DNA from: Prochlorococcus sp. AG-363-B11
GTDB lineage: Bacteria > Cyanobacteriota > Cyanobacteriia > PCC-6307 > Cyanobiaceae
NCBI GenBank assembly: GCA_003278425.1
Contig: QCFE01000001.1
Span: 1 to 64,000 of the forward strand
Direction of reading: 5' to 3'
DNA: 64,000 nucleotides
Position 1 is the stretch's first letter, and every line of letters starts with the position of its first letter. The notes below the pieces were generated by a model. It was not told the DNA's origin. It saw only the letters and a list, made by a program, of their open reading frames with translations, and did no database searches. Made by a program: the position numbers and the translations under genes. Shown in pieces: positions 1 through 26,996 of this stretch.

Positions 1-957
1 ACTCCTTTCAAGGAGTATCAACTTATCAGGAGATAACATAATTATCTCTTTGCATAGTTGACTTCCAATAGAACCACCAGCTCCTGTTACACATACTGTT
101 GAATCTTTAATCCCTGGACCTAAAAGATTATTCTCTGGTGAAACACTATCTCGTCCTAATAAGTCTTCTATTAAAATAGGTTTTAGGTTATCAATTTTGG
201 TTCTCCCAGAAATTATATTTTCCAATGAAGGAACTTGTAGAACCTCTTTATTATAGCCTTGTAGTGAGTTAAATATCTCTTTAAATCTATTAGTAGGGAC
301 TGAAGGAATTGCAATAAGTATTTTTTTTACATTATATAAATTGTCCTTTATTTCATTTGGATTTCTTACAGGTATTCCATTAATTCTAGTGTTCCACAAA
401 TGAGATGAGTCATCAATAAATAGCCTTACTTTATATTTTCCACCTGTATTAATAGCCGATGCTAACAGGAAACCAGCAGACCCAGCTCCATAAATAGCTA
501 CTCCGATTTTATTCCCATCATTTGATATATTCAATTTTTTAAATATATCACTTAAGACTAGTCTAGAAGAGCAAATCATAAAGTTAGTCAAGATCCAAAT
601 CAATAAATAATATCTTAGGTTATAGTTAATATCGTATAATCTTTGAACTAGGAAATAGAGAAAGCAGATAAATGTATTTCGAAAAATAATCTCATACAAA
701 GTAGTACTCTGCATATATCTACTAAGCCCTTTATATTGCCCAGTAAATACATATATTGGTAAAGCTATTAAAATTAACGGTATCAAGTTAGAAAGTGTTT
801 CATCTAATAATTCCAATTTGTAAATAGTATAATTTTCATTAATAATAAATCTAGTCAGCAAAATACTAAATAAAAGTATGATTGTATCTATCGAAGATAA
901 TTGAAACCTTCTAAACCATATAGGCTGTGAAAATAATTTTTTTGAAAATTTTCTCAT
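1..957 (-). CDS. FlaA1/CapD-family nucleotide-sugar 4,6-dehydratase, truncated by window edge
   Basis: The first 319 codons are present and the frame is open to base 1, so the C-terminus lies outside the window. Reading from the ATG at 957, about four hydrophobic membrane segments fall in residues 18-130. A first Rossmann motif (GAGSAG, near residue 155) follows, and an NAD-binding GAGGSIG near residue 292 opens the catalytic dehydratase domain. This layout is that of the long membrane-bound FlaA1/WbpM/PglF-type enzymes, which convert UDP-GlcNAc to a 4-keto-6-deoxy sugar at the cytoplasmic membrane. It follows a sugar aminotransferase with only 40 bases between them, so the two could make a 4-amino-4,6-dideoxy sugar (inference). 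The catalytic residues cannot be checked here. Confidence 0.85.
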   Translation of the reverse strand, partial: MRKFSKKLFSQPIWFRRFQLSSIDTIILLFSILLTRFIINENYTIYKLELLDETLSNLIPLILIALPIYVFTGQYKGLSRYMQSTTLYEIIFRNTFICFLYFLVQRLYDINYNLRYYLLIWILTNFMICSSRLVLSDIFKKLNISNDGNKIGVAIYGAGSAGFLLASAINTGGKYKVRLFIDDSSHLWNTRINGIPVRNPNEIKDNLYNVKKILIAIPSVPTNRFKEIFNSLQGYNKEVLQVPSLENIISGRTKIDNLKPILIEDLLGRDSVSPENNLLGPGIKDSTVCVTGAGGSIGSQLCKEIIMLSPDKLILLERS

Positions 958-2164: not shown

Positions 2165-3130
2165 TTAAATAAGCGATTTAACTGTTTCGATAATATTTTC
2201 TGTTGTCAATTTATAAGTCTTAAGGAGTTGTTCATAAGTTCCAGAACTTAAGTAAGAAGAAGGTAAAGAGATATACTTATAAGCCTTAGTTCTTAGGTTA
2301 TGTTGTATTAATATTTCTGAAATTATTGAATTCAAACCACCAACACTAGAATGCTCTTCAACTACTAAAACATATTTATAGTTATTGATCAAGTCAGGCA
2401 ATCTATTATCTATTGGCCTTAATGTATGAATATTAACTACAGATACTGAGATATTTTCATTACTCAGTAGATTGGCTGCTTTAAGGCTTACAGAACACAT
2501 AGATCCATATGTAAGAATTAAAACATCTTTACCTTCAGTTAAGATATGATACTTACCTAACTCAAATTGATAGTCTTCATTATGGACTACAGGGCATCCT
2601 GCAACTCCTGTCAACCTAATGTAAGCAGGTCCAGTGTAATTTGATAAAGCCTCTATAACTTTATAGACTTCTACACAATCACATGGATTAACAATAGCTA
2701 TATTAGGCAAAGATCGTATGATTGAAATATCTTCAAGACCAAAATGTGAATTACCTAAGAAACCCATGGATATACCACTACCAATTGCTACTAATTTGAC
2801 ATTGCTTTTCATATAGGAGAGATTCATCCTAACTTGTTCTCCTGCCCTAAGAGACAAGAATGGAGCAAAACTTGAAACAAATACATTGTAAGAACAACTT
2901 GAAAGCCCAGAAGAAAAGCCAATCATATTTTGTTCTGCTATACCAATATTTAAATATCTCTCTGGGTAAGCCTTTTTGAATCTATCTAAACCTGATGAGT
3001 TTCCTAGATCTGCAGATATAGCAAATATTTTATGATTTTCCTCTGCAAATTCTAAAATAGATTGTCCATAAATGGCTCTAGGTCCTAACCTAGACCACTG
3101 TCTTGCTAATGATTTATTTATATTTATCAT
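2165..3130 (-). CDS. Split transketolase, C-terminal subunit (PYR plus C-terminal domains)
   Basis: A 321-residue protein matching the pyrimidine-binding and C-terminal domains of transketolase/DXS-type enzymes. The NIGIAEQNM motif near residue 61 carries the thiamine-diphosphate-activating glutamate (E66). The C-terminal domain (about 190-321) has the usual transketolase-C fold pattern (SVVNIHTLRPID). It overlaps the N-terminal subunit gene by four bases (ATGA), so the pair is almost certainly translated together and forms one heteromeric enzyme. Split transketolases of this kind occur in archaea and in specialised pathways rather than in the cyanobacterial Calvin cycle, which uses a full-length single-chain enzyme. 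A dedicated role in polysaccharide precursor synthesis is inferred from its neighbours. Confidence 0.9.
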   Translation of the reverse strand: MININKSLARQWSRLGPRAIYGQSILEFAEENHKIFAISADLGNSSGLDRFKKAYPERYLNIGIAEQNMIGFSSGLSSCSYNVFVSSFAPFLSLRAGEQVRMNLSYMKSNVKLVAIGSGISMGFLGNSHFGLEDISIIRSLPNIAIVNPCDCVEVYKVIEALSNYTGPAYIRLTGVAGCPVVHNEDYQFELGKYHILTEGKDVLILTYGSMCSVSLKAANLLSNENISVSVVNIHTLRPIDNRLPDLINNYKYVLVVEEHSSVGGLNSIISEILIQHNLRTKAYKYISLPSSYLSSGTYEQLLKTYKLTTENIIETVKSLI

Positions 3131-3951
3131 GGTTCTAAGGCCTTTATGGCTTCTTGATAAAGGACTTCAGTAAGTCTCCCATGATGCCATGCATTATTAT
3201 TCTCCATAAAATCTACACCTTTGCCCTTTATAGTAGAAGCTAAAATTAATTTAGGCTTGTCTAGAGTCAAAGAGAAGGCTCGATGAATCTCATTGAAATC
3301 ATGTCCATCAATTTTTATTACCTCCCAACCAAAAGCCTTCCACCTATTTTCCAAATCAACGCAATTTATAATTTCATTTGTAGGACCATCACTTTGAAAG
3401 CGATTGTTATCAATAATACATGTAATATTAGTTAAATTTAAAGCTGAGCCAGACATTGCAGCCTCCCAAACAGATCCTTCATTACACTCTCCATCACCTA
3501 GTAATACATAAACTTTTGATTTAACATTTAAACTCTTTAAACCTAAAGATATTCCTAATCCATAGGAAAGTCCGTGGCCTAAGCTTCCATTAGAAGATTC
3601 AATAGCGTTATCAAGATTTCGAATTGGATGGGATATCAATTCACTACCCTCGGTCTTATAAGTAGAAAGTAGTTCATCTGAGATAAAACCATATTTATTC
3701 AAAACTGGGTAAAAACCCAGGACACCATGCCCTTTAGATAAAATAAATCTATCTCTATCAAAAGAGTTTTTATTTTTTATATTTAAATTGAGCTTTAATC
3801 CATATAGATAACACATTATTTCAACCATTGACATGCCTCCACCAATATGTTGACCACCTCCAGATTTAAATGAGAGTTCTAAAATTTTATTTCTAACTTG
3901 ATAGGCTTCATCTGAAAGCCTTTTCAATACGTGATTTGGTAATTCATTCAT
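3127..3951 (-). CDS. Split transketolase, N-terminal (thiamine diphosphate-binding) subunit
   Basis: A 274-residue protein when started at the ATG at 3951, which has a strong GGAGG ribosome-binding site just upstream and lies one base after the SDR stop. A longer reading from 4005 would overlap the SDR gene and lacks that support. Family landmarks are SKGHG (active-site histidine region) and the ThDP/Mg motif, GDGECNEG followed later by IIDNN. It must pair with the C-terminal subunit, whose gene overlaps by four bases. The reaction class is transfer of a two-carbon ketol unit from a ketose to an aldehyde. The aldehyde acceptor could be the product of the LuxC-like reductase encoded upstream (inference). 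Confidence 0.9.
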   Translation of the reverse strand: MNELPNHVLKRLSDEAYQVRNKILELSFKSGGGQHIGGGMSMVEIMCYLYGLKLNLNIKNKNSFDRDRFILSKGHGVLGFYPVLNKYGFISDELLSTYKTEGSELISHPIRNLDNAIESSNGSLGHGLSYGLGISLGLKSLNVKSKVYVLLGDGECNEGSVWEAAMSGSALNLTNITCIIDNNRFQSDGPTNEIINCVDLENRWKAFGWEVIKIDGHDFNEIHRAFSLTLDKPKLILASTIKGKGVDFMENNNAWHHGRLTEVLYQEAIKALEP

Positions 3952-3952
3952 A

Positions 3953-4687
3953 TCATAGACCTCCGTCAACTTGTAATACTTGTCCTGTGATATGCGAAGC
4001 TTCATTAGAGCATAAAAATAATATTACTGAAGAAATCTGTAATGGATCTGCAATCATTTTAAGAGAACTTTGTGACACTTGCTGTTCTATTGCATTTGGA
4101 TCCATTTTATCAAGCATATCTGTCTTTGTAACTCCTGGTGCAACAGCATTTACCCTAATTCCTGAGTCACCTAATTCTCTAGCTAGAACTTTTGTTGCAA
4201 AGTTTAAGGCTGCTTTTGATGACCCATAAACTAATGTGCCTGGATCATATCTAAAAGAAGAACTAGAAGATATATTGCATATTACTCCAGATTTGTTCCT
4301 TGACATTAATCTTGCAACTAATTGACTTAAATATAAAAGTGAAAAATAGTTTATATCAAATATATTCTTTAAATCATCAACCTTTGTCATTGAAAACAAA
4401 GAGCCATGAGGTGCGCCCACGCAATTAATAAGGATATCTATTCTAGAAGACTCTCTCCAAATAGATTGAATTGCATTCTTAGCCTCTTGGTAATCGGTAA
4501 CATCAAATTGATATATATACAAACTACTATTAGGATTAGACTTAGCTTTAGAAAGCTCTACAAGGTATTTTGATTCTCTCTTTGAACAAGCACAAACAGT
4601 ATTTCCCATTTTGAGAAGTTCCTTAACTACTGTTAAACCTATGCCTCGTCCAGCACCGGTAACAACGCATACTTTGTTTTCAATCAT
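3953..4687 (-). CDS. Short-chain dehydrogenase/reductase (FabG-like)
   Basis: A classical SDR of 244 residues. The cofactor motif TGAGRGIG is at residues 10-17, the catalytic serine is in the NISSSSS run (about 141), and the active-site pair Y154/K158 is in YGSSK. The C-terminal ITGQVLQVDGG stretch is typical of FabG-like reductases. It reduces a ketone or oxidises a secondary alcohol with NAD(P). Lying between the GMC oxidoreductase pair and the split transketolase, it may act on an acyl-ACP intermediate or on an alpha-hydroxyketone made by the transketolase. It is four bases downstream of the small-protein gene and one base upstream of the transketolase N-subunit start. Confidence 0.9.
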   Translation of the reverse strand: MIENKVCVVTGAGRGIGLTVVKELLKMGNTVCACSKRESKYLVELSKAKSNPNSSLYIYQFDVTDYQEAKNAIQSIWRESSRIDILINCVGAPHGSLFSMTKVDDLKNIFDINYFSLLYLSQLVARLMSRNKSGVICNISSSSSFRYDPGTLVYGSSKAALNFATKVLARELGDSGIRVNAVAPGVTKTDMLDKMDPNAIEQQVSQSSLKMIADPLQISSVILFLCSNEASHITGQVLQVDGGL

Positions 4688-4691
4688 TTAA

Positions 4692-5108
4692 TTAGAAAGT
4701 TCTTGGATGGAAATTATTATTTTTGCTAGTAACTTCCTCGATAACCATCCTAATCTCATGTTCATTTATTGGTATGGGCAACGAAGATAATACCACTGGA
4801 TGTGAAAAGTAAGAATAAATTATTAATTCTCTTATTTCAGTGATAAATTTATGAAAATCTTCCTTAGAAAAACTCTCAACTGCAAATCCTTCGATTTGAT
4901 CGAAAGAATTGTATGGCTTTTTCTTATTATTTAATACTACCATATTCAAAAAATTAATATATCTTTTTTCAAATTTATTTAGTCTATCTCTACACAATTT
5001 ACTTGATGAAGTCGAAATATAGTAACAAGCTTTTTCTTTTAGATAATCGGAAGGAGGGATAGAAAGATCTACAATTATCTTCAAACCATCAGAAATGCTA
5101 TTTCCCAT
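4692..5108 (-). CDS. Small unrecognised protein coupled to the GMC oxidoreductase (possible accessory subunit)
   Basis: A 138-residue protein from the ATG at 5108, which overlaps the end of the GMC oxidoreductase gene by 11 bases; a start four codons earlier is possible. I recognise no domain. There is no clear signal peptide or membrane helix. The composition is mixed and charged, with a helix-rich look (SKEDFHKFITEIRELIIYSY). Some FAD-dependent GMC sugar dehydrogenases work with a small partner subunit encoded next to them (gluconate 2-dehydrogenase subunit 3 type). Size, position and overlap suggest such a role, but this is inference and not supported by a motif I can point to. Confidence 0.6.
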   Translation of the reverse strand: MGNSISDGLKIIVDLSIPPSDYLKEKACYYISTSSSKLCRDRLNKFEKRYINFLNMVVLNNKKKPYNSFDQIEGFAVESFSKEDFHKFITEIRELIIYSYFSHPVVLSSLPIPINEHEIRMVIEEVTSKNNNFHPRTF

Positions 5109-6714
5109 TAATATTCTCAAATAAATAGCTATACCTCTTCAATATATTATCAGAAATATATAAGGAGAGCGCATGGATAGTAGAAGCTGGGTTTACACCA
5201 GAAGATGAAGGAAATATAGATGAATCAACTATGAACAAATTTTCAATATCATGACACTTGCCAAATTTATTTACAATCGAATCTTTTGGGTCCTCACCCA
5301 TTTTACAAGTGCCCATAATATGCCATCCAGTTGATCTAACCGGTCCAAATGCAAATGTTTTGTAAGCACCAGCTTCCTTCAAAAGCCTTCTTCCGCTAGT
5401 TAAACCATGAGATAACATCCGTTTTGAATTGTGAGAAAGTTGATAATTTATTGAAATGCCAGGTTGGTTAAATTTATTCTTTTTAGACCAATCTAATTCA
5501 ATTTTATTTGAAGCTTCAGGAAAATCCTCGGTTATTATTGTCATATGAGCCGTATGATTATAAATAGAAAGAAAGTCATCTATAAAAGTTTTACTGCCAA
5601 GTTTAAGTTTCTTTCGTGCAATTAAGCTTAAAGAAGATTCTACAGGAAGTGGTCCTCTAAGAACCTGAAATGTATAACCTCGTTTAAAATCATGTTCGGC
5701 TCTTGTTTCATAAAATTCCTGAGATAATAAACAACAACCCTGAGGTCCAATATTTGAATAAAGATTATCTTTAAAATAGCCTTCAACATATCCAAGAGGA
5801 TGAAGCATAAGGTTTTTACCAAGTAATCCAGATGAATTCGCTAGACCATTACTATATAAATCATTACTAGAATTAAGCAGTAAACGAGGTGTACCAATTC
5901 CACTAGCTGCAAGTATGTAGACTCTAGAGATTGCCGATTGAGAAGAACCATTCGCATCAATAAAATGTACCTTCTTTATTTTGTTTAATCCACTTTCTAA
6001 TTTAATAACAATACAGTTAGTTTTCAATATTAAGCCTTTCTTAATAGCTTTTGGAAGATATGTATGATTACTTGAACCTTTAGATCCTGAAAAATCACCT
6101 ATATTAGAGGGTCTAGAATAATTATCTGAAGGCCTACCATCATAAGGAACAGTAGCAATAGCACTATAAGCTGGCCACCAATGCCATCCTAATGATTCAA
6201 AGGCTCCTGCAATTTTTTTACCCATAGGAGCTAATGGGACAGGAGGTAATAAATTTTTAATATCTTTATAAAAAGGATCACCCTCAACACCAGCAACACC
6301 TGTTAATTCTTGATCAAGTTCATAATATTTTTTCAGGTCAGAATATGAGATAGGCCAATCAGCGCCTACACCATCTAATGAATATGTAGAAAAATCCGAC
6401 TCATGGAACCTTGGGTATTGAGCAGAGTATAAAACTGTTGAGCCTCCCACGCCATTAAAATTGGCTATATTTATTGGCGAATTAGAAGAGTCTATATTAT
6501 ATTCAAAATCATTCTTTCTTACATTAGGGTCATAACTTAAGGATGAATATCTCTGCAACTCTCCTCCTTCTTCTATAGAAATAAAATCCTCTTTATTCAA
6601 AAAATCTCCCTGTTCAAAGCATGCAACTTTAAGTCCAGAGTTAACTAAATGCCAAGCACTCGCTAATCCTGATGCACCCCCACCAATAATTATTACATCA
6701 TATTTTTCTGTCAT
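5098..6714 (-). CDS. GMC-family FAD-dependent oxidoreductase
   Basis: A full-length GMC oxidoreductase of 538 residues. The N-terminal dinucleotide motif is IIIGGGASG (about 9-17). The C-terminal catalytic region has H465 in GWHIMGTCKMG and N508 in SSGVNPAS, the usual histidine/asparagine pair. The family oxidises primary or secondary alcohols of sugars, polyols or lipids using FAD. No signal peptide is visible, so it is probably cytoplasmic or peripheral. It overlaps the FabZ-like gene upstream by four bases (ATGA) and the small-protein gene downstream by 11, so it belongs to the same unit as the ACP/LuxCE genes. The substrate is unknown; an acyl or sugar alcohol intermediate of the cassette is likely. 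Confidence 0.92.
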   Translation of the reverse strand: MTEKYDVIIIGGGASGLASAWHLVNSGLKVACFEQGDFLNKEDFISIEEGGELQRYSSLSYDPNVRKNDFEYNIDSSNSPINIANFNGVGGSTVLYSAQYPRFHESDFSTYSLDGVGADWPISYSDLKKYYELDQELTGVAGVEGDPFYKDIKNLLPPVPLAPMGKKIAGAFESLGWHWWPAYSAIATVPYDGRPSDNYSRPSNIGDFSGSKGSSNHTYLPKAIKKGLILKTNCIVIKLESGLNKIKKVHFIDANGSSQSAISRVYILAASGIGTPRLLLNSSNDLYSNGLANSSGLLGKNLMLHPLGYVEGYFKDNLYSNIGPQGCCLLSQEFYETRAEHDFKRGYTFQVLRGPLPVESSLSLIARKKLKLGSKTFIDDFLSIYNHTAHMTIITEDFPEASNKIELDWSKKNKFNQPGISINYQLSHNSKRMLSHGLTSGRRLLKEAGAYKTFAFGPVRSTGWHIMGTCKMGEDPKDSIVNKFGKCHDIENLFIVDSSIFPSSSGVNPASTIHALSLYISDNILKRYSYLFENINGK

Positions 6715-7172
6715 TTTGGAAGATACTGTGTGAATATATCCGGAATAGTTATCAACATATTAGCTGATGATACTATTACATTATCAACTTTGCAGATTGC
6801 ATTTCCTCTGGCAATTCCTCTTTTCCATGAGGTTAATTCTGCTCTAATATCTAATCTGTCACCAGGCACAACTTCTTTCATAAACTTAACTTTATGCTCT
6901 AATGCATGGGTAACTTTGCCTTCAAGGCCATCTAAGGTGGTAATTGCAACCGTAAGCATTTGTGCCATTGATTCAAGTTGAAGGGCCCCTGGCATATTTG
7001 GATGGCCTTCAAAATGCTTAGGGAAAAACCATTCATTGTTTGTAAGGTTTTTATATCCTTCTGCATATTCTCCAGGAACAACGCTGACTACACGATCAAT
7101 CATTAAAAAAGGATATCTATTAGGCTGATATCTCTGAAGCTCAATTGAACTTAAAGAAAACTCATCAGTCAT
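6711..7172 (-). CDS. FabZ-like hotdog-fold 3-hydroxyacyl-ACP dehydratase
   Basis: A 153-residue single hotdog domain, slightly longer than FabZ. RYPFLMIDRV near residue 19 and KHFEGHPNMPG near 52 align with FabZ. The catalytic pair is present as H53 and E67 (LES). The conserved histidine that normally precedes RYPF in FabZ is asparagine (N18); it is not the catalytic one. The expected reaction is dehydration of a 3-hydroxyacyl thioester on ACP, or a related thioester reaction. This is a second, cluster-specific hotdog protein next to a dedicated ACP, LuxC and LuxE, so it probably acts on the cluster's acyl carrier and not in general fatty-acid synthesis. Confidence 0.85.
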   Translation of the reverse strand: MTDEFSLSSIELQRYQPNRYPFLMIDRVVSVVPGEYAEGYKNLTNNEWFFPKHFEGHPNMPGALQLESMAQMLTVAITTLDGLEGKVTHALEHKVKFMKEVVPGDRLDIRAELTSWKRGIARGNAICKVDNVIVSSANMLITIPDIFTQYLPK

Positions 7173-7174
7173 AG

Positions 7175-8386
7175 CTAGTAAATTTGAACTTGTCTAGATA
7201 ATGATGAAACAATATCATGACCATCCCAAAAAAGATGCATATTCAATGCATCGCCTGATTTGACTAGCCTATCAGTACCTAATGGACCAACTAATTGAAT
7301 AAGTTTAGAGTTAAGAGATTCTTCATATGGGATATTAACCAAGGTCTGATTATTATCAGGCAATAAGCTGTGTAGTTCTTCCAATGATTCTATACAAATT
7401 AATAGTAAACAAGCATTATCTGGACGATATTTAAGAACTTTTGAGCTTGGTTTAGATTTAGATGTTGCAACAAATAGATGTCTACCTTTAAAAAACTTCT
7501 CCAAGTCCAAGGGATCTTGAAACAAGAAATCTATCGCTGACTTATAATTATCAAGGCAAGAAATTTGATTATTATGCTTGTCTCCAATAGTATTATCAAC
7601 TTTCTCAAGAAATTTATTAATTTCGAATAGATCTATATCTAAGTCATCAGACTTTAAAAGAAAAATAATAAATGGGGAAGAGCATGCTCTTTGAGAAAAA
7701 GTAGCAATATCTCTTGCAAAACCTTCTATAAGGTTAATATATTTATCTTTATCCAGATGAACTAATTTAGAAGGTGATATAAGTGCACATGAAGTTCTAT
7801 TTGGGAAACATAGATCAACACAAGCTGGAGAGGTTTGATAATTCTTAAAGAGGTTAATAGTATCATCGCCTCCCCAAAGAAGCCTAGAAGAAGCACTTAT
7901 AGATAATTCTTTATTAATACTTTCAGAATGAATATAACTAATGATAGAAATATAATTTTTTATATGAGTAAATTCCTTTAAATCAAGAATTTTGTTGATC
8001 TCCTTAAGAATAGAAGTTAAAGTTTCCTTGGTTTTAGAGGAAACTCTTATAACTGAAGGGGTACCTGATAATAATCCAAAAGCTAATGAAAAGAGTGCGT
8101 TTGCTGGAACATTACTAGGTGTTATATGCAAGCTTCCTCCTCTTCCAAAGCGCCTATGTAGATTTTTATATTCATTCTTAACTGCTTTAAGGTTAGCTGA
8201 GCGAATCCAAAAGAAAAAACCTGCAAATTCCCGTAAAGATGGATCTTGCTTATACTTAACAAGTATTTTGCTAGATAATACTGAAAAGAATTCAAGAACA
8301 GTTGGATCAAACACCTTAAAAGGTCGTGTCTTAATTGTACTTAAGGGTTCAGATCCTATTAATACCTCTATGTTCTCCATATTCAT
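7175..8386 (-). CDS. LuxC-like acyl-thioester reductase (aldehyde-forming)
   Basis: A 403-residue protein of the LuxC branch of the aldehyde dehydrogenase superfamily. Landmarks are HITPSNVPANALFS (near 88), GGDDTI (172-177) and the nucleophile C235 in FSQRACSSP, matching the acyl-accepting cysteine of LuxC. LuxC reduces an acyl group, passed from LuxE or as acyl-CoA, to the free aldehyde with NADPH. It overlaps the luxE-like gene by four bases (ATGA), so the two subunits are probably made together. There is no luciferase gene nearby, so bioluminescence is not its role here; the aldehyde is more likely an intermediate for the downstream transketolase and oxidoreductases. Confidence 0.88.
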   Translation of the reverse strand: MNMENIEVLIGSEPLSTIKTRPFKVFDPTVLEFFSVLSSKILVKYKQDPSLREFAGFFFWIRSANLKAVKNEYKNLHRRFGRGGSLHITPSNVPANALFSLAFGLLSGTPSVIRVSSKTKETLTSILKEINKILDLKEFTHIKNYISIISYIHSESINKELSISASSRLLWGGDDTINLFKNYQTSPACVDLCFPNRTSCALISPSKLVHLDKDKYINLIEGFARDIATFSQRACSSPFIIFLLKSDDLDIDLFEINKFLEKVDNTIGDKHNNQISCLDNYKSAIDFLFQDPLDLEKFFKGRHLFVATSKSKPSSKVLKYRPDNACLLLICIESLEELHSLLPDNNQTLVNIPYEESLNSKLIQLVGPLGTDRLVKSGDALNMHLFWDGHDIVSSLSRQVQIY

Positions 8387-9459
8387 CTTCTAAATGTATC
8401 ACTACAGCCTCTAACTTCGGCAGTTTTAGTTCTTCCATGTACTAAAAAGGCTTGACCAGGTCTTCCACATGGGCAATTTTCTTGATGTATAACTTCCACT
8501 AAGTCATCCGTAAGTAAGCTATGACCTGGGTAACTTGTAGGTAATCCCGAAAGCACCTGAGCTAAACCAATATTTCCAATACTGATTGGCTCCAAATCTA
8601 ATTGGGATCTACAAATTAAAGATGCTAAAGGATTAGAATGTAAATAACCTTTTTCACATTCCATAAATATAGATCCAGTTTGCTCGATCATTCCATAATA
8701 AGATAATACACTATGCGTACCTAATGACTCCTTAGCTATAGAGTTGAACTGATTCCTACTAATAGACAAAGATTGTAATTTCTTCCAACCTCCTCCATGC
8801 AAAACAACTGCTTTTGAAAGGTATTCACGAATAGAAGGAGGTAGTTTACTTTGAAGGAAATATTTGTAAATTATCCAAGTAAAACCAAATATCAATATAT
8901 TTTGATTGGTAGTATTTTCTAAAAATTTCTCAATGCTATTTAAATCTACCTGATAATTGCTATCTAAGCCATAAGCAGACTTTCTACATAAGCCTCTAAA
9001 ACCAATGATGCCAGCAACTCTAGCATTAAATTCTCTTCTATCTGAAATAAGATCTGGAGAATCGATAATTAATATGTCAGGACGTTTTAATTTAGTAAAT
9101 GCTGTAAATATCTTTGACAAGGCAATTGTCTGATTCCTAGCATTTTCTCTAGTAAGATAAATTGAAGAGGGGGTTTTACCTGATGTGCCTGAAGAATGAA
9201 GAACCTTAAAAATTTCTTCATCAGGACAAGAAATAAGTTTATAGGATTTAAAAAGATTTACTGGTAGAAAAGGCAAGCTATATAAATCCTCATAATGATC
9301 AAACATATTTTCACTGTAAAAGTTATCAATTAAAGCTCTATAGTAAGAACAGTTATTCTGATGAAAATCATGTAGAGAATATAGATGTGTTTGAAATTCT
9401 GCGCTGAAGTCTTTCTCCGACAACAATGAAAAGCTTTCAAGATATTGCTTTAAGTCCAT
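8383..9459 (-). CDS. LuxE-like acyl-protein synthetase
   Basis: A 358-residue member of the LuxE family of acyl-adenylating enzymes. The nucleotide motif is HSSGTSGKTPS (about 88-98), and the central region has the family's STYG-like GESLGTHSVLSYYGM pattern, read here as KESLGTHSVLSYYG. The C-terminus has CPCGRPGQ, then a late cysteine (C352) that could be the acyl-carrying residue of this family. LuxE activates a carboxylic acid with ATP and hands the acyl group to LuxC. The gene overlaps the AMP-ligase gene upstream by ten bases and luxC downstream by four. Having both an AMP ligase and LuxE is odd, because either could activate the acid. Confidence 0.86.
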   Translation of the reverse strand: MDLKQYLESFSLLSEKDFSAEFQTHLYSLHDFHQNNCSYYRALIDNFYSENMFDHYEDLYSLPFLPVNLFKSYKLISCPDEEIFKVLHSSGTSGKTPSSIYLTRENARNQTIALSKIFTAFTKLKRPDILIIDSPDLISDRREFNARVAGIIGFRGLCRKSAYGLDSNYQVDLNSIEKFLENTTNQNILIFGFTWIIYKYFLQSKLPPSIREYLSKAVVLHGGGWKKLQSLSISRNQFNSIAKESLGTHSVLSYYGMIEQTGSIFMECEKGYLHSNPLASLICRSQLDLEPISIGNIGLAQVLSGLPTSYPGHSLLTDDLVEVIHQENCPCGRPGQAFLVHGRTKTAEVRGCSDTFRR

Positions 9460-10862
9460 TGATTCCCTTTCAACTCTTTATAAAGTATTTTACCAGATTC
9501 ACTTCTTGGTAAATCTTCTATAGTCTTTATAACTATAAGTATAGGGTTTATATTTACTTTCTTTAGTATACTTAATTTAATTTCTTTAAAATTAATCTCG
9601 TCTATTGTTTCGATATATATATAAATTTTATTGTCATCAGATATAACAGCATTAGTAAAATCCTTAGATAATAAATCCTGGATATCATCAAGTGAAACCC
9701 TGTTTCCACTAATTTTGGCAAATCTATTTATTCTTCCACAAATATAATAAAAGCCTTCAGCATCAACGTAAGCCAAATCTCCTGTATCCAAACTAGCCTT
9801 AACCTCATATATCTGATCCAGATCCTTGCAGTTATATGCATAGCCCAATGTAACATTTGGTCCTTTATAAACAAGTTCACCACTTGGAAAACCATTAATT
9901 CTATTGTAAAGACTCTTATTTCTTAAACTGAAGCTCCCTCCTGGAATAGCTATACCAATACTTCCTATTTTCGTATTTAAATCTCTTGGAGGCAAGTAAC
10001 TCATACGAGCTGTAGCTTCAGTTTGTCCGTACATAACAAAGAATTCTTTACTAGTTTCCATGCAAAATTTATTTAGAGGCTGCAAATACTTAGGTGAAAG
10101 CTTCCCACCTGCTTGCGTAAACTTAGTTATACTATTTAACGGCAACTTATCCAATCCAAGGCGACATAACATCTCATATGTATAAGGAACTCCAGAAATA
10201 GTTGTTGGTTTCCAGGAAGTAAATAATTCCCAGAAATCACTACTAAGAATAGATTCATTATTTAGTATGATCGATGCTGAGGAATATAAATGAGTATTAA
10301 TCGCTGAAAGTCCATAAGTATAATTCATAGGCAAGGTTGTAATATGTCTCTCTTCAGATGATACCTTTAAATATTTAATTATAGATTTAGTGTTTGACAA
10401 TAGATTTTCCTTGCTAATATTAACTACCTTAGGGCTACCAGTACTGCCAGATGTTGTCAGAAGTAGTGCTGTTGTATTTGAGCTGATAGAGTAACTCTTA
10501 TTGAATATATATATATATATACTATCATTTCTAACAAGCTTAGAGTTAGGTATAGATAGTTCTTGATTACTTATTAAAGAGTACGGGCAGAATCTATTGA
10601 TAAATTCATATAATTGTTCGATTTTAATATTATCGGGTAAAAGTAAAGGGACTGAACCCATCCTTAAACATGATAGATAGCTAGCAATAGTTCTTATATT
10701 ATTTGAGCCAAGAATTATTACTATCTTATTGCTTTTTGTAAATTCATAAAAACTATCTCTTATTTTATTGAGCTCTAAATATGTCCAAGAAGTAGAATTA
10801 TCTATGATTGCAACTTTGTCTTCATTTCCTTCTATAATTGAATTAGAAGTCAGGTCAATCAT
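9450..10862 (-). CDS. Acyl-AMP ligase, likely loads the adjacent ACP
   Basis: A 470-residue member of the AMP-binding (ANL) superfamily. The phosphate loop is TTSGSTGSPKV (about 121-131), MYGQTEATAR (near 283) is the A5-type motif, and LDTGDLAYVD is the A8 hinge aspartate region. The C-terminus keeps the late lysine in SESGKILYKEL. Enzymes of this length next to an ACP gene usually form an acyl-adenylate and transfer it to the phosphopantetheine arm. The gene overlaps the ACP gene by eight bases and luxE by ten. A (AT)8A tract at 10505-10521 lies inside the coding region near residue 115. The acid substrate is not predictable by eye. Confidence 0.88.
   Translation of the reverse strand: MIDLTSNSIIEGNEDKVAIIDNSTSWTYLELNKIRDSFYEFTKSNKIVIILGSNNIRTIASYLSCLRMGSVPLLLPDNIKIEQLYEFINRFCPYSLISNQELSIPNSKLVRNDSIYIYIFNKSYSISSNTTALLLTTSGSTGSPKVVNISKENLLSNTKSIIKYLKVSSEERHITTLPMNYTYGLSAINTHLYSSASIILNNESILSSDFWELFTSWKPTTISGVPYTYEMLCRLGLDKLPLNSITKFTQAGGKLSPKYLQPLNKFCMETSKEFFVMYGQTEATARMSYLPPRDLNTKIGSIGIAIPGGSFSLRNKSLYNRINGFPSGELVYKGPNVTLGYAYNCKDLDQIYEVKASLDTGDLAYVDAEGFYYICGRINRFAKISGNRVSLDDIQDLLSKDFTNAVISDDNKIYIYIETIDEINFKEIKLSILKKVNINPILIVIKTIEDLPRSESGKILYKELKGNQWT
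10505..10521. repeat. Dinucleotide repeat (AT)8A inside the acyl-AMP ligase gene
   Basis: Seventeen bases of alternating A and T encode alternating Ile and Tyr (SIYIYIF) on the minus strand. Loss or gain of one AT unit would shift the ligase frame. It may be a slippage site, or only a result of AT-rich codons. Confidence 0.75.
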
Positions 10863-11097
10863 TAAAATCTATTCCATATTTCCCAAGAGTTTCCTTACCT
10901 TTTTCAAATGAACTGAAGTCAATAATATCATCCATTTCCAACATAATATCAAACTCCTCTTCTAGCATTGCAATCATACTCATATGACCGACAGAGTCCC
11001 ATTGAGGTATATCTTGATATTTAAGATCCTTAAGTGTACTTTCATCAGTTTCAAAGGATTCAATAAATACTTTTTGATAGCGTTCTAAATTAGACAT
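10855..11097 (-). CDS. Dedicated acyl carrier protein
   Basis: An 80-residue acidic carrier protein. The attachment serine is S35 in the WDSVGHM motif, followed by the helix IAMLEEEFDIMLEMDD typical of ACP/PCP domains. It carries the acyl group as a phosphopantetheine thioester. It is not the housekeeping AcpP, whose motif is DSLD. The WDS(V/L) form is typical of specialised carrier proteins in polysaccharide and secondary-metabolite loci. It overlaps the ligase gene by eight bases and follows the acyltransferase gene by four, so carrier and loading enzyme are made together. It needs a phosphopantetheinyl transferase from elsewhere in the genome. Confidence 0.9.
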   Translation of the reverse strand: MSNLERYQKVFIESFETDESTLKDLKYQDIPQWDSVGHMSMIAMLEEEFDIMLEMDDIIDFSSFEKGKETLGKYGIDFND

Positions 11098-11101
11098 AGA
11101 A

Positions 11102-11749
11102 TCAATTAAAAACCTTACGATCCTTGTTTTTAAGAATAGCTCGAGCTGGATTGCCCATTACAATTATATCATTAGGAACATCTCTCTGAACTATTGAACC
11201 CATAGATATTATTGAAAAGCTCCCAATATTCAAACCCTCTCTAACCTGAGCTCCCATTGCAACATAGGCACCATCGCCTACCCTAACTGCTCCACCTAAA
11301 TTAACAGTTGATGAAATGACCGCATGTTTACCTACTTGTATATCATGACCTATAATTGATTGACGATTTACTAAGACATTTTCATTAATTAATACATCAC
11401 TAGATATTGAGCAAAAATCACAAATAATAGACCCTTCTCCAATATAAGCACTAGGTGAAACTAAAGCTGTATTATCTATCAAAGTATCGAAGGATAATCC
11501 TTTACTATGAAGTTCATTAAATATTGACTGTCTTACAGCTGGCTCACCATTAGCAATTATAACCTTATCAAGATTTGAATAAGCCTCAAATAAGTCTTCT
11601 TTGGAAATGATATCTATTTTATCTGCTGTAAATTTATTGGCGTTTTTATTCTCATCTACGAAAATGATATCCTTTTTCTTATATTTTGTCCTAATCGCTA
11701 AATCATATATTTCTTTGCCTAAAGAGCCAGCACAAAAAATATAAAGCAT
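11102..11749 (-). CDS. PglD/NeuD-like left-handed beta-helix acyltransferase
   Basis: A 215-residue protein with an N-terminal nucleotide-sugar-binding half (residues 1-85, MLYIFCAGSLGKEI) and a C-terminal hexapeptide-repeat beta-helix (about 95-205). H135 in SIIGHD sits where the PglD catalytic histidine is expected. The VMGNPARAI ending is typical. PglD adds acetyl to the 4-amine of UDP-bacillosamine precursors; NeuD acetylates sialic acid precursors. Here it follows the PglC-like transferase by seven bases, the same pairing as in pgl operons, so an N-acetyltransferase for a 4-amino sugar is the first guess. Given the ACP gene just downstream, it could instead use an acyl-ACP donor. Confidence 0.85.
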   Translation of the reverse strand: MLYIFCAGSLGKEIYDLAIRTKYKKKDIIFVDENKNANKFTADKIDIISKEDLFEAYSNLDKVIIANGEPAVRQSIFNELHSKGLSFDTLIDNTALVSPSAYIGEGSIICDFCSISSDVLINENVLVNRQSIIGHDIQVGKHAVISSTVNLGGAVRVGDGAYVAMGAQVREGLNIGSFSIISMGSIVQRDVPNDIIVMGNPARAILKNKDRKVFN

Positions 11750-11756
11750 TTAAAAT

Positions 11757-12365
11757 CTATTTAAATGTAGGGAGCCTATCATGATCTATTCTGTTAGTAA
11801 AGTCTTTGACTATATATACAGCCGTTAAGAGTATAATTTTAAGATCTAATAAAAGAGAAATCTGCTTTACATATTTAATATCGAAATTTAATCTAGTTTG
11901 AAAATCCAATTTTTCAGATCCATTAACTTGAGCTAATCCTGCAATACCAGGCAAAACATTGTGTCTTAAACGTTGTTCTGAAGTATATAAAGGTAAATAT
12001 TCTACAAGTAAAGGTCTAGGACCGACAAAACTCATATCTCCTATAATTATATTTGCTAATTGAGGGAACTCATCAATTCTTAATTTTCGAATAAGAGTTG
12101 AGATTTTTGTAACACGATGGTTGTCTGAATAATGTTTCTCTGAAGAACGTGGTGTTCTCATTGTTTTTAATTTAATTAAATTAAATAGTTTTTCTTTATA
12201 TCCAGGCCGCTGTTGAACAAAAAATGGATTCTCCCCCAAATTAATGAAAAGGATAACAGAAGTTAGCACAACAATTGGTAAGAGTAAGCAGGATAAAATA
12301 ATTGCTATAGAAATGTCTAAAGTCCTTTTTAGAGTTGTATATGAAATACTTACTTTATTAATCAT
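11757..12365 (-). CDS. PglC-like initiating sugar-phosphate transferase
   Basis: A 202-residue member of the small monotopic phosphoglycosyl transferase family (bacterial sugar transferase). KRTLDISIAIILS starts a hydrophobic N-terminal re-entrant helix (about 13-40). FFVQQRPGYKEKLFNLIKLKTMR carries the family's core motif, and KLRIDEFPQL with FVGPRPLL is the signature. It transfers a sugar phosphate from a UDP-sugar to undecaprenyl phosphate, which starts the repeat unit at the cytoplasmic membrane. The short form lacks the extra membrane domain of WcaJ. It overlaps the glycosyltransferase gene upstream by eight bases. The sugar may be a diamino or N-acetyl-fucosamine type, both made by this locus (inference). 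Confidence 0.92.
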   Translation of the reverse strand: MINKVSISYTTLKRTLDISIAIILSCLLLPIVVLTSVILFINLGENPFFVQQRPGYKEKLFNLIKLKTMRTPRSSEKHYSDNHRVTKISTLIRKLRIDEFPQLANIIIGDMSFVGPRPLLVEYLPLYTSEQRLRHNVLPGIAGLAQVNGSEKLDFQTRLNFDIKYVKQISLLLDLKIILLTAVYIVKDFTNRIDHDRLPTFK

Positions 12366-17040: not shown

Positions 17041-18207
17041 TTAATAAGATTCTTGGTTTTTAGTAGGTAAAGTGGATGTGGCCGCTCCTCCTAGAAAAAA
17101 CCAAAACAAAGGATTTATTGCAATGTTAGCACTAAGAAAGAACGCTGGGAGATAATATAATATATAGATATAGGCAAAACTATTAGCCCTTTCCTGACTT
17201 TTCCTTATTAACAGCAACTTCCTAAACAGGATAGAAAAAATAAGTATTGGTAGAATTAAACCGCATTGAATAGCATATGTCAGAAAAGTGTTATGAACAT
17301 ACCATGATTGTTCATCTGAAACGATATAAGTCACAATAGAACCAGAACCTGGACCAATAAGTTGATTAAATACTGAGGTCGTAACCAAGTTCCAACCTGA
17401 AACAATTTGTTCAATTCTTCCTGCAGAAATAACATCTAGAGAATTGAATAAATCATCAGAGTTAAATCCAGTTATTCCAGTCTCCCATCTTTGTAGGTAA
17501 GTTAGAATTTCTGTTGTATATAAGCTAAATCCTAGCAACATAAAACCTAACAAGTAAATAGGGTAAAGAGAAAATTTTCTAAGGCTAAATAATCTTCTTC
17601 TTATTATTTGGTCTAACGCAACCCCAAATATTGACAATACTGCTATTCTCTTTGCTTGTAAAATAGTAGCTATTGGTATGAGGAATATAAATAGTTTGTT
17701 TCTTGTATAAATTGATAAATAAAGTAGTGGTATAACAATAGCAATGGAATTACCAACTCTTCCTATATAGCCCATATAATTTATATATCCATATATAGAT
17801 GCTTGAATAAGCATAAAAACAAGTGAGATATACATAGGTACCTTTAGTGTCTTTTCAAATGTAATAGTATCTCCATAGGATTGATAAACTGATCGACCAT
17901 ATTTCATCATAATAATAGGCATCAAGAAAATATAAAATGACATTATTGAATATTGAGAATAAGTTCTATTTATAAACCCTGAGATAAGACTTATGACGAG
18001 TCCTAAAATGAATAGAATATCTAAGATAGACAAATTTTTGAGCAAACGAAGTTTAGTTATCTTTATAAAGGCATATAAAACCAACAATCCTTCTACTATA
18101 AGTGTAAAAGGAGGTAAAGCTGTAATGCCCAAAACAGCAATAAAACGAGCAACTATATCATTTACACCATATAAAAAAAGTATCGTTACTAAAAATATCT
18201 TAAACAT
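17041..18207 (-). CDS. Wzy-like O-antigen polymerase / ligase family membrane protein
   Basis: A 388-residue protein with about 10-12 hydrophobic helices and a large loop near residues 240-310 that contains the GPGSGS and WYVHNTFLTY stretch. The pattern H-N-x-x-L in such a loop is typical of the Wzy_C/O-antigen ligase superfamily. It would join repeat units on undecaprenyl pyrophosphate at the periplasmic face. The family diverges strongly, so no substrate can be given. Its start overlaps the NeuA stop by one base. It is the only polymerase candidate in the window; a Wzx flippase was not found and may lie beyond the left edge. Confidence 0.78.
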   Translation of the reverse strand: MFKIFLVTILFLYGVNDIVARFIAVLGITALPPFTLIVEGLLVLYAFIKITKLRLLKNLSILDILFILGLVISLISGFINRTYSQYSIMSFYIFLMPIIMMKYGRSVYQSYGDTITFEKTLKVPMYISLVFMLIQASIYGYINYMGYIGRVGNSIAIVIPLLYLSIYTRNKLFIFLIPIATILQAKRIAVLSIFGVALDQIIRRRLFSLRKFSLYPIYLLGFMLLGFSLYTTEILTYLQRWETGITGFNSDDLFNSLDVISAGRIEQIVSGWNLVTTSVFNQLIGPGSGSIVTYIVSDEQSWYVHNTFLTYAIQCGLILPILIFSILFRKLLLIRKSQERANSFAYIYILYYLPAFFLSANIAINPLFWFFLGGAATSTLPTKNQESY

Positions 18208-18959
18208 TATTGAATATTATTTTGAGAAGATTTATTAGTAAATGGATCTAATTGAAATAGACCAGAACTATAAACCATCTTAGCCATTTCATAATCCTCC
18301 TTTGTATCAATATCAATTGCATATTCGTTCATAACGTAAAAGGTTTCAGGAGAACTATGAATTCTTTTTTCTAATAGAAAAAATTCCCTAGAAACAATAT
18401 AAATTGAAGCATTATATATATAAAATGGGGTTCCATCGCCTATATTAATAAGCTCTTCTTGATTTAGATCAGACTTCTTTTTTAATATAGTATGCCTTTT
18501 AGAAAAAGGGCCAACTACAGATGCCAAAGTAGGGCATTTCCCTTTTTCAAAATGTTTTATTGAGGACAAAATATCATATGAGTTTCTAAAAGGGGAGGTA
18601 GGCTGCAACAATATATACGCATCATGAATTATTCCCTTTTCTTGCTCAAGGTAGTTAATTGCATGTTTCATAACCTCGTAATTTGTAATATTATCTGACG
18701 ATATAGAAGCAGGCCTAATAAAAGGTGAATAGGCTCCATAACTCAATGCTATATCTCTTATATTCTGACAATCAGTAGAAAAGATATGATCTATTTTTGA
18801 AGATAATGCTTTTGCACTATTCAGAGAAAATGCTATTAAAGGGTGACTGCCAATCTTAAGTATATTTTTATTAGGTAATCTCTTTGATCCACCTCTGGCA
18901 GGAATAATAGCTAAGTACTTTTTTTCTATCTTATAGTTATCTAATAATTCATTGTTCAT
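18207..18959 (-). CDS. neuA: CMP-nonulosonate (acylneuraminate) cytidylyltransferase
   Basis: A 250-residue NeuA-type cytidylyltransferase from the ATG at 18959. A start at 19016 would overlap the cupin gene for no good reason. The nucleotide motif AIIPARGGSKRLPNKN is near the N-terminus (about 17-32), and LLQPTSPFRNS near 113 is the second family motif. It activates a nonulosonic acid as its CMP form. It lies in the series DapA-like, NeuB, KdsC-like, cupin, NeuA, so the sugar is probably made by the adjacent NeuB. Whether that is Neu5Ac, Kdn, legionaminate or another cannot be decided here. Confidence 0.9.
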   Translation of the reverse strand: MNNELLDNYKIEKKYLAIIPARGGSKRLPNKNILKIGSHPLIAFSLNSAKALSSKIDHIFSTDCQNIRDIALSYGAYSPFIRPASISSDNITNYEVMKHAINYLEQEKGIIHDAYILLQPTSPFRNSYDILSSIKHFEKGKCPTLASVVGPFSKRHTILKKKSDLNQEELINIGDGTPFYIYNASIYIVSREFFLLEKRIHSSPETFYVMNEYAIDIDTKEDYEMAKMVYSSGLFQLDPFTNKSSQNNIQ

Positions 18960-18972
18960 TTTAAATATAATT

Positions 18973-19413
18973 CTATTTCTGAATAATCTCGGAGTCTTCT
19001 GAAGATGGTAGTCCACTAAAATCGTTAGGATCTAAGCCAAATTTCTCCTCTACTCTAACTCTATCATTGAAAAAAGGAGTAGAAACTTCTATTAACTCGA
19101 CATCACTAATTGCAGTTTCCTGATGGATGCATCCACTAGGGAAGTGAAGCCAATCGCCTGGACCAATACTTTTCTTTACCAATTTCCCCTGTTTATCTTC
19201 ATAAGTTACCAAGAGTTCCCCTGATAAAACATATGCTGCTTCATCTTTCTTTCTATGATATTGTAATCCTCCTGAAAAACCTTCTTTTATTTTAAGCTTC
19301 TTCATTGTATATTTTCCAGGGGCAAGTACAAGAAGAATTTCTTCACCCCAATCTCTTTTACCTACAGATTCTGATGCAGGGAATAATGCAGATGGTCTAT
19401 CAACTTCCTTCAT
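18973..19413 (-). CDS. Single-domain cupin protein in the nonulosonate block
   Basis: A 146-residue cupin resembling the C-terminal domain of mannose-6-phosphate isomerase/GMP. The metal site is visible as LQYHRKKDEAAYVLSGE (first cupin motif, H-x-K-x-D-E) and GDWLHFPSGCIHQE (second motif, PxGxxHxE). It may bind or isomerise a sugar intermediate of the nonulosonate pathway. It lies three bases downstream of the KdsC-like phosphatase and 13 bases before NeuA, so it belongs to that block. Its reaction is unknown. A sugar isomerase or epimerase role would fit the missing source of the NeuB substrate (inference). Confidence 0.78.
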   Translation of the reverse strand: MKEVDRPSALFPASESVGKRDWGEEILLVLAPGKYTMKKLKIKEGFSGGLQYHRKKDEAAYVLSGELLVTYEDKQGKLVKKSIGPGDWLHFPSGCIHQETAISDVELIEVSTPFFNDRVRVEEKFGLDPNDFSGLPSSEDSEIIQK

Positions 19414-19416
19414 AAT

Positions 19417-19926
19417 TTAATTATAAGAATTATTTTTAATATTAATGAACATATCACAGACTTCTCTTACGGCACCACAACCACCTTTCTTATCGCAAGT
19501 ATAATCACAAATATCTAACACTTCTTTATATGAATCAGAAACACCTATTGATACACCAACTGCTTTTAAAGCACCTAAATCGTTAATATCATTCCCTACA
19601 AAAGCAAATTGGCTAAGTGGAATAGATAATTCCTCTGATATTTGATTGATCACAGAAACTTTATTTTCAACAGCTTGATAACAATTTATTTTTAGCTTCT
19701 TGCACCTTTTAGAAACAACAGGATTTTTCTCTGTTGAAACTACAAATATTTTCATCCCTAAAGAACTAAGTCTAGAAAGACCTATACCATCACTGCGATA
19801 ACAGGCAACACTTTCTTTACCATCCTCATCTACATAAACTTTATTATCTGTAAAAACACCATCGAAGTCAAAACAAATTACTCTGACTGAACTCATTCTC
19901 ATCAAATTTTCTTTATTACTATTCAT
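19417..19926 (-). CDS. KdsC-like HAD phosphatase for a nonulosonate phosphate
   Basis: A 169-residue HAD phosphatase of the KdsC/NeuA-C type, without a cap domain. The nucleophile motif is CFDFDGVFTDN (about 18-28), VVSTEKN is motif II, and FVGNDINDLGAL near 118 is motif III. The late CDYTCDKKGGCGAVRE matches KdsC ends. It hydrolyses an 8- or 9-phosphate from Kdo-P or nonulosonate-P. Bacterial Neu5Ac synthesis by NeuB needs no phosphatase, so its place here suggests a phosphorylated route such as Kdn-9-phosphate. It overlaps neuB by eight bases. Alternative starts lie eight and ten codons inside. Confidence 0.87.
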   Translation of the reverse strand: MNSNKENLMRMSSVRVICFDFDGVFTDNKVYVDEDGKESVACYRSDGIGLSRLSSLGMKIFVVSTEKNPVVSKRCKKLKINCYQAVENKVSVINQISEELSIPLSQFAFVGNDINDLGALKAVGVSIGVSDSYKEVLDICDYTCDKKGGCGAVREVCDMFINIKNNSYN

Positions 19927-20956
19927 CTATAGCTATTTCAGATAATTCAATAGGGTCTCCAGAGTTTATATCATTAAGTAATCTTGCTCCTACAAAATCA
20001 GCTGAATTTCTAACAGGTACGTGATTTTCGTTAAATATTTTTCCAGAAAGGTTATCCAAGGTAAGAATATCTCCTTTCTTTAAATCGGATGCCGCTACAA
20101 TTGATTTACCTAACTTCTGGAATACTTTTTCTTTCCCTAAAGTATCTTTAGGTTTACTTGGAAGCATTTTTGGTGTTCTTTTTATATCTCTTACGAATTG
20201 AGAAAAACCATGCGATGTAAGTGAAAAGCTATGATCTGTACCTTTTAAAGACCTATCAAGAGTCACATGCTTTTCAAAGACTCTTGCTCCTAAAAGGTAT
20301 GCAATAGGTCCTGTACTAATTCCGTTAAAATGATCTGACAAGCCAATGGTAAGATTGGGGAAATTGGTACTTAAATTAGTAATTTCTGAAAGCCCTAGTT
20401 TATCTACTGGGCAAGGGTACTCAGAGACGCAGTGTAACAAAGCAAGGTCAGAATGATACTTTTGTATTTCTTCAATGCTTAATTTAATTTGATTATCCAA
20501 ACCTCCTCCTGTACTTATTACGACAGGAATTGATGTCTTTGCAATTTTATCTATAAAGGGAAGGTTACCTATATCAAAAGATGCAATTTTTATGGCATCA
20601 ACTTCTAATTTACAAAGCAAGTCTAAGCTTGGCTCATCGAAAGCAGTAGACATAAATTTAACGTTGAAATTTAAGCACTCTTCTTTTATTTTCTCTAATT
20701 CATGTTCTTTTAATTCTAACTTCTCTCTGTGTTCACCATATGTATTAGCAAAAGAGTTTTCTGAATCATAAGTCTTAGTGTAAGCATCATTAGAAAATAA
20801 ATATCTATTATTCCTTGTCTGAAATTTAATTGCATCCGCTCCTGCATCAGCAAAGATTCTTATATATTTCTTTGCTGTTTCGATATCTCCTTGGTGGTTC
20901 TGTCCTACCTCGGCTATTATAAAAGAATCCTTATCGTCTTTCAAAAAAGAAAACAT
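19919..20956 (-). CDS. neuB: NeuB-type nonulosonate synthase
   Basis: A 345-residue NeuB family enzyme with an N-terminal TIM barrel (IIAEVGQNHQGD near 13-24, IKFQTR near 42) and a C-terminal SAF antifreeze-like domain (about 285-345, GKSIVAASDLKKGD). It condenses phosphoenolpyruvate with a six-carbon aldose or its phosphate. The KHVTLDRSLKGTDHSFSL segment with its metal-binding histidine is intact. The order aldolase, NeuB, phosphatase, cupin, NeuA is a nonulosonate block. The sugar acceptor is not known: no ManNAc-forming NeuC lies in the window, and a Kdn-type phosphorylated acceptor is possible. Confidence 0.92.
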   Translation of the reverse strand: MFSFLKDDKDSFIIAEVGQNHQGDIETAKKYIRIFADAGADAIKFQTRNNRYLFSNDAYTKTYDSENSFANTYGEHREKLELKEHELEKIKEECLNFNVKFMSTAFDEPSLDLLCKLEVDAIKIASFDIGNLPFIDKIAKTSIPVVISTGGGLDNQIKLSIEEIQKYHSDLALLHCVSEYPCPVDKLGLSEITNLSTNFPNLTIGLSDHFNGISTGPIAYLLGARVFEKHVTLDRSLKGTDHSFSLTSHGFSQFVRDIKRTPKMLPSKPKDTLGKEKVFQKLGKSIVAASDLKKGDILTLDNLSGKIFNENHVPVRNSADFVGARLLNDINSGDPIELSEIAIDE

Positions 20957-21005
20957 TATCTATTAAAAGATTTCTATATACATATTAATATCATACCTTT
21001 TTTAT

Positions 21006-26773: not shown

Positions 26774-26923
26774 AAATCAAGTCAATTAATGCTTTGATCT
26801 ATTAATAGCAAATAGGCTTGCCAAGGATTCTATACACAGAATTCATAATGTTACTTAGATGTCCCATATAGGATTAATGTGATTTTTTCGTAAAAGCATA
26901 ATGTTATAAATAAAAAAGACTAA

Positions 26924-26996
26924 TGGAGCCAAGCGGATTCGAACCGCTGACCCCCTGCATGCCATGCAGGTGCTCTACCAACTGAGCTATGGCCCC
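26924..26996 (-). tRNA. tRNA-Ala (anticodon GGC)
   Basis: The minus-strand sequence folds as a 73-base cloverleaf. The acceptor is GGGGCCA with TGGCTCC plus discriminator A, and one G-U pair occurs. The anticodon stem CCTGC/GCAGG encloses the loop ATGGCAT with anticodon GGC. The T arm has GGTTCGAATCC. CCA is not encoded. The GGC anticodon reads GCC/GCU alanine codons. It lies on the edge of the polysaccharide island with its 3' end facing the island side. No partial copy of its 3' end was noticed elsewhere in the window. Confidence 0.97.

Follow-up and report, generated by a model that had tools for sequence, protein, structure and literature searches.

The question raised by positions 2,165 to 11,097 of a 64,000-nucleotide stretch of Prochlorococcus sp. 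AG-363-B11 (contig QCFE01000001.1, positions 1 to 64,000; hereafter the window) is what could be made by a gene block in which an acyl carrier protein (ACP), an acyl ligase, LuxE- and LuxC-type enzymes and both halves of a split transketolase (TK) lie together inside a polysaccharide operon. Ten minus-strand open reading frames (ORFs), mostly overlapping or a few bases apart, run from 11097 down to 2165. A sequence-only reading had counted nine genes; its gene order and families were otherwise borne out by the ORF list and by the Pfam and NCBIfam profile matches through which families were assigned. Every catalytic residue it named is also correct: ACP S35, LuxC C235, FabZ H53/E67, Y154/K158 of the short-chain dehydrogenase/reductase (SDR), E66 of the C-terminal TK subunit (TKc) and GDG...NN of the N-terminal subunit (TKn). 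In transcription order, the block reads:

10855..11097, minus strand: dedicated ACP of 80 amino acids (aa), Ser35 in WDSVGHM
9450..10862, minus strand: AMP-forming acyl ligase, putative acyl-ACP ligase (PF00501, 2.8e-38)
8383..9459, minus strand: LuxE acyl-protein synthetase (PF04443, 2e-42)
7175..8386, minus strand: LuxC acyl reductase, Cys235 (PF05893, 1.9e-27)
6711..7172, minus strand: FabZ-type dehydratase, His53/Glu67 (FabA/FabZ, 1.6e-24; exceeds the NCBIfam FabZ cut-off)
5098..6714, minus strand: GMC-type FAD dehydrogenase (Pfam GMC; 6a2u_B, 8e-46)
4692..5120, minus strand: small protein, divergent Gluconate_2-dh3 member (homologues match PF13618)
3953..4687, minus strand: SDR, FabG-like ketoreductase, Tyr154/Lys158 (adh_short, 8e-50)
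3127..4005, minus strand: TKn (Transketolase_N, 6e-36; 6yak, 1e-56)
2165..3130, minus strand: TKc (Transketolase_C/pyr, 5e-31; 6yaj, 4e-60)

As called, the TKn ORF shares 53 nt with the SDR gene; its likelier start is an internal ATG at 3951, immediately beyond the SDR stop codon.

The answer that we tentatively favour is a mobile module that makes an unusual short hydroxy or keto acyl group and delivers it to an amino sugar of the surface glycan. The evidence computed here comprises gene order and its conservation, catalytic residues, an altered TK site, interchangeable thiamine diphosphate (ThDP) enzymes and flanking amino-sugar genes. The ACP/LuxE/LuxC set of glycan loci has so far gone unexplained under the labels "fatty acid" and "liposugar"; the interchangeable ThDP carboligases next to it point to a concrete, testable chemistry, in which an aldehyde is joined to a ketol or acyl unit, and this coupling predicts new glycan residues across many bacteria.

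Conservation of the cassette

The cassette is real, conserved and mobile. A LuxE profile search of public genomes gave 435 relatives, of which the best 80 were examined with 10-kb flanks. One complete genome of the same genus carries all ten genes in identical order, but elsewhere in the family the distribution is patchy: of about 300 further genomes, only 4 contain LuxE. The order PglD-ACP-ligase-LuxE-LuxC-FabZ-GMC-small-SDR-TKn-TKc was found in Duganella, Pseudoduganella and a Rhodocyclaceae metagenome-assembled genome; Paraburkholderia/Burkholderia loci share the full order, although in some of them ORF calling missed single ORFs; Emcibacteraceae have it without PglD, and Synechococcus AG-679-B05 has ACP through TKn, where its contig ends. 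This recurrence of one gene order across phyla excludes chance grouping.

Of the 54 loci that span 20 kb or more, 47 have the ACP, AMP ligase, LuxE and LuxC; this near-constant core is widespread in glycan loci. The window ACP matches Pfam PP-binding weakly (E=0.0024, under the curated cut-off), and W33-D34-S35 is conserved at 97% or more among 69 cassette ACPs. Cys352 near the LuxE C-terminus is invariant in the conserved columns of 81 sequences. Relatives in the PDB are a long-chain acyl-protein thioester reductase (7xc6) for LuxC, and oxalate-CoA ligase and DltA, all distant, for the AMP ligase. Similarity matrices are correlated among AMP ligase, LuxE and LuxC (rho 0.83-0.86), between TKn and TKc (0.80) and between LuxE and TKc (0.70), which is consistent with co-inheritance, although shared taxonomy contributes. 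Viral contigs searched with the LuxE query held no relative.

In variant cassettes the GMC gene gives way to a radical-SAM gene or another SDR, or the TK is missing. The radical-SAM gene lies beside the ACP or ligase in place of the GMC enzyme in loci L009, L017, L066, L079 and L085. In L008:5841-8216 and L096:13914-15381, TKc is followed by a zinc-type dehydrogenase and another FabZ; in L008 an Antibiotic_NAT-family gene, a possible alternative acyltransferase, comes next.

The transketolase and its substitutes

The cassette transketolases keep the thiamine site of the canonical enzyme (E411, GDG, H66, H261) and have lost its substrate-site residues H461 and D469 and, almost always, R520. In the window TKc, Glu66 is kept and H461/D469/R520 of the canonical enzyme are replaced by G117/L125/G175. 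In this and all aligned cassette TKc, E. coli H461 has become Gly, Ala, Ser or another residue and D469 has become Leu, Phe, Ser or Ile; the position of R520, which is hard to align, is almost always Gly, and all retain catalytic E411. Nearly all cassette TKn retain H66 and H261 and most retain H100; the H26 region is altered. With engineered changes at D469 and R520, E. coli transketolase acts on non-phosphorylated aldehydes; D469T and R520Q are such changes, giving activity on benzaldehyde derivatives (PMC5073344, PMC7661550). The cassette transketolases point to a natural family already substituted where engineers broaden acceptor range. The loss of H461 and D469 was considered as a trait unique to the cassette and rejected, as some control paralogues also deviate; it marks a non-canonical class.

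The background of TK-like genes in twelve cassette-type genomes is about 0.02 per 20 kb. Loci L024 and L059 have two TK pairs each. Phage matches to TKn are all below 60% identity, and the ten listed come from unannotated records.

Where the TK pair is missing, another carboligase often stands in. The 56 loci of 17 kb or more divide into 24 with the TK pair, 13 with an acetolactate synthase (ALS)/JanthE-like ThDP enzyme and 19 with neither, and no locus has both; the exclusivity is significant (Fisher p 2e-4), though related taxa are not independent. In TK-less cassettes of Rhizobium, Massilia, Curvibacter, Novosphingobium and others, this enzyme is an ALS-superfamily protein of 589-612 aa. 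Its closest solved relative (8rph, E 4.5e-101; next 1e-77) is JanthE, a YerE-like carboligase (PMC12188165). We do not claim orthology, since the CDG motif of JanthE is absent and GDG stands in its place. No description of the core coupled to a ThDP carboligase was found in the literature searched.

A NeuB-like gene follows the alternative ThDP enzyme by 9-64 bp in 13 of 14 cases, and only those next to an ALS-type enzyme score under both cut-offs, for PseI and for NeuB. Acting on an aldehyde, NeuB-type chemistry would yield a 4-hydroxy-2-oxo acid; donors of this type are used by ErwE and accepted by JanthE (PMC12247030, PMC12188165). This parallel would point independently to an aldehyde as the product of the core. 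An ACP, FabZ, ALS/JanthE-like enzyme and NeuB-like synthase stand in tandem in L032:12187-15897, L040:5735-9239 and 11 similar loci, a set that could make a 4-hydroxy-2-oxo acid for sugar branching. Anticorrelation of NeuB with TK was dropped as evidence, because NeuB is an ordinary PseI in a flagellar context in Bacillales and related loci tested.

Accessory enzymes and flanking amino-sugar genes

The cassette FabZ is 36% identical to the housekeeping FabZ of the same genome; FabZ copies of other GMC-type cassettes are 63-74% identical to that of the window. The GMC enzyme is related to bacterial FAD glucose and fructose dehydrogenases. By itself the small protein has no family match, and its predicted structure (pLDDT 79) matched nothing in the PDB; 8 of 11 homologues match PF13618 (best 1.3e-10). 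A GMC large subunit with a Gluconate_2-dh3 partner, the latter recognised via homologues, is the make-up of a two-subunit GMC dehydrogenase, and the small protein is probably the partner subunit.

The operon extends past the block on both sides, with two genes downstream and two upstream that bear on the destination of the product:

1..957, minus strand: WbpM/PglF-like UDP-sugar 4,6-dehydratase, 5' part only, truncated at the contig end
998..2164, minus strand: DegT aminotransferase, closest to Psychrobacter Pcryo_0638 (7l7x, E 4.7e-125; next 5e-49)
11102..11749, minus strand: PglD/NeuD/VioB-family sugar N-acyltransferase (TIGR03570, above cut-off), 4 nt upstream of the ACP
11757..12365, minus strand: PglC-like initiating sugar-phosphate transferase (PF02397, 7.8e-51)

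Dehydratase (cut by the contig end), aminotransferase and N-acyltransferase are thus found in one locus, as in a UDP-QuiNAc4N pathway of the PglF/PglE/PglD type. The sequence-only reading had DegT aminate a hydroxyketone; amination of a sugar is likelier, because 7l7x, a characterised UDP-4-keto-6-deoxy-GlcNAc aminotransferase, is its closest relative by far. PglD directly precedes the ACP in the window and in most GMC-type cassettes, and 18 of the 37 loci with a ThDP enzyme have a PglD-family gene within reach, against none of the 19 others. Judged from these flanking genes, the evidence suggests that the cassette supplies a 4-amino sugar with its N-acyl group.

Proposed pathway and alternatives

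In the pathway that we infer, from substrates and order of steps to product, a small carboxylic acid would be activated by LuxE and reduced to an aldehyde by LuxC. The split transketolase would place a two-carbon ketol unit on the free aldehyde, giving R-CH(OH)-CO-CH2OH. Oxidation of the terminal alcohol by the GMC/Gluconate_2-dh3 enzyme and reduction of the ketone by the SDR would yield a 2,3-dihydroxy acid, which the AMP ligase would load onto the dedicated ACP, its 3-hydroxyl making it a FabZ-type substrate. Finally, the WbpM/PglF-like dehydratase and DegT would provide a UDP-2-acetamido-4-amino-2,4,6-trideoxyhexose, whose 4-amino group would receive the chain from the PglD-family enzyme; the repeat unit would be started by the PglC-like transferase. 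From the earlier pathway, this retains the coupling of aldehyde formation to a carboligase, in agreement with the altered TK site and the substitute ThDP enzyme, and gives up both the action of DegT on the hydroxyketone and the novelty of the core.

Generalised, the scheme would be a ketosynthase-free lengthening of an acyl group by two carbons, through LuxE/LuxC aldehyde, split-TK ketol addition, re-oxidation to an acid, ACP loading, FabG/FabZ-like reduction and dehydration and transfer to a glycan amino sugar, with sister cassettes using a NeuB-like synthase and a JanthE-like ThDP enzyme for the carbon-carbon chemistry. We regard this wider idea as rather doubtful.

Several observations weigh against the delivery of a TK-made acyl group. 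Many TK cassettes lack FabZ and the GMC enzyme, so these steps are not essential to the theme, and the 19 of 56 loci with the core and no carboligase indicate that the core has another use. No TK-bearing cassette has a known product. Some further split TK-like paralogues of these genomes deviate at H461 and D469 too, and the characterised split transketolase and human TK lack an Arg exactly at the R520 position. Acetyl-CoA is the usual donor of PglD-family enzymes, and the second member of the genus has no adjacent PglD but an Antibiotic_NAT-family gene instead.

Among other explanations, we consider it unlikely that the TK pair adds a hydroxyacetyl group to the keto group of a nucleotide sugar, as YerE-like enzymes do and as proposed for miharamycin, while ACP, LuxE and LuxC provide an acyl or aldehyde component of their own. 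In favour, a keto-sugar acceptor has been suggested for transketolases encoded by split genes (PMC12247030), the nearest PDB entry to the substitute ThDP enzyme is YerE-like JanthE (4.5e-101 vs 1e-77 for the next), and the WbpM-like dehydratase of the locus yields a 4-keto sugar. That sugar, however, is expected to go to DegT, the GDG of the alternative enzymes is not JanthE's CDG, and the direct LuxE/LuxC linkage in all loci would be left unexplained. The notion that the genes make or add a long-chain fatty glycan component was put forward for the ACP/FabG/ligase/LuxE/LuxC set of flagellin islands in Enterobacteriaceae and Aeromonas (PMC4875605, PMC7874193); for the window it is decidedly improbable, as the block has no ketosynthase, the transketolase and GMC enzyme would have no role in a fatty chain, and an Aeromonas flagellin glycan from an island with the core bears only a 102-Da moiety and no fatty chain. 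It is hardly credible that the TK pair is an ordinary pentose-phosphate enzyme present by happenstance, even with its thiamine-binding and catalytic residues kept (E411, H66, most H100, H261), given that every cassette member has lost H461 and D469 and that the pair keeps a fixed place next to the SDR in cassettes from several phyla.

Genomic setting

Farther upstream lie L-FucNAc-type genes (FnlA-like, WbcJ-type reductase, UDP-GlcNAc 2-epimerase), the reductase match being slightly under the family cut-off, and nonulosonate-type genes. G+C is 0.315 across 1-25286 and 0.387 beyond 36 kb, as expected for a surface-glycan island. At 18207-21908 (minus strand), a NeuB-like synthase, scoring under the NeuB and PseI cut-offs alike, adjoins a KdsC-like phosphatase, a PseF-like cytidylyltransferase and a DHDPS/NanA-like aldolase, an unusual ulosonic-acid pathway. 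A sugar C-methyltransferase at 23444-24667 (minus strand; PF08421/PF08484) suggests a second branched sugar in the glycan. An NAD-dependent epimerase ORF at 29124-29867 (plus strand) looks N-terminally truncated or frameshifted, its best profile match starting at family position 80. Between the glycan region and housekeeping genes lies a 611-aa ORF with no Pfam match (33434-35269, minus strand).

Comparison with known systems

The core is already known, though unexplained; its coupling to ThDP carboligases is, judged from the literature searched, the new part. The sequence-only reading's statement that no pathway has this set therefore fails for the core, which occurs in flagellin islands (PMC7874193, PMC4875605) and resembles RfbK/L/N of Vibrio cholerae O1 (PMC12208996, PMC4772473), and holds in that no description was found of the full order with TK, GMC and FabZ or of its product.

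For the acceptor sugar, the window DegT and PglD-family transferase match the Psychrobacter cryohalolentis UDP-2,4-diacetamido-2,4,6-trideoxyglucose pathway (Pcryo_0612/0638/0637), and a 4,6-dehydratase is present. Pcryo_0638 was shown to make UDP-2-acetamido-4-amino-2,4,6-trideoxyglucose and the Psychrobacter transferase was shown with acetyl-CoA (PMC8040287), whereas the window transferase adjoins an ACP with its own acyl pathway. The Carboxydothermus split-gene transketolase (6yaj/6yak), the closest solved structure for both window subunits, retains H461 and D469, unlike the cassette enzymes. JanthE/YerE-like enzymes are relatives of the ThDP enzyme that replaces the TK in other cassettes; the window has none.

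Flagellin glycosylation islands of Aeromonas group II and Enterobacteriaceae contain the ACP/FabG/AMP-ligase/LuxE/LuxC set (PMC7874193, PMC4875605), matching the core by family and by type of locus, but with no transketolase reported and in a pseudaminic acid and flagellin context. By arithmetic, a dihydroxybutanoyl residue (C4H6O3) is 102.03 Da, a match to the 102-Da moiety of the Aeromonas flagellin glycan that is suggestive only.

By gene families, the window also resembles the RfbK/L/M/N/O genes for N-(3-deoxy-L-glycero-tetronyl) perosamine of V. cholerae O1, where an ACP, an AMP ligase, LuxE/LuxC function and a sugar N-acyltransferase likewise lie in an O-antigen locus. RfbM is an iron alcohol dehydrogenase. 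An Fe alcohol dehydrogenase gene at 25489-26682 (plus strand), beside the polysaccharide operon but outside it, is a possible counterpart; it adjoins tRNA-Ala(ggc) at 26923-26997, a possible island edge. In the window, LuxE and LuxC are separate, FabZ, GMC/Gluconate_2-dh3 and the split transketolase are added, and the sugar route belongs to the UDP-QuiNAc4N type. RfbN includes a LuxE domain (PMC4772473), and RfbL is reported to activate 2,4-dihydroxybutanoate for RfbK (PMC12208996), an order that fits LuxE and LuxC acting before ACP loading. Parts of the pathway are thus already known, and the simplest reading by analogy is that the cassette product would be an N-acyl group on an amino sugar, like tetronate on perosamine in V. 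cholerae O1.

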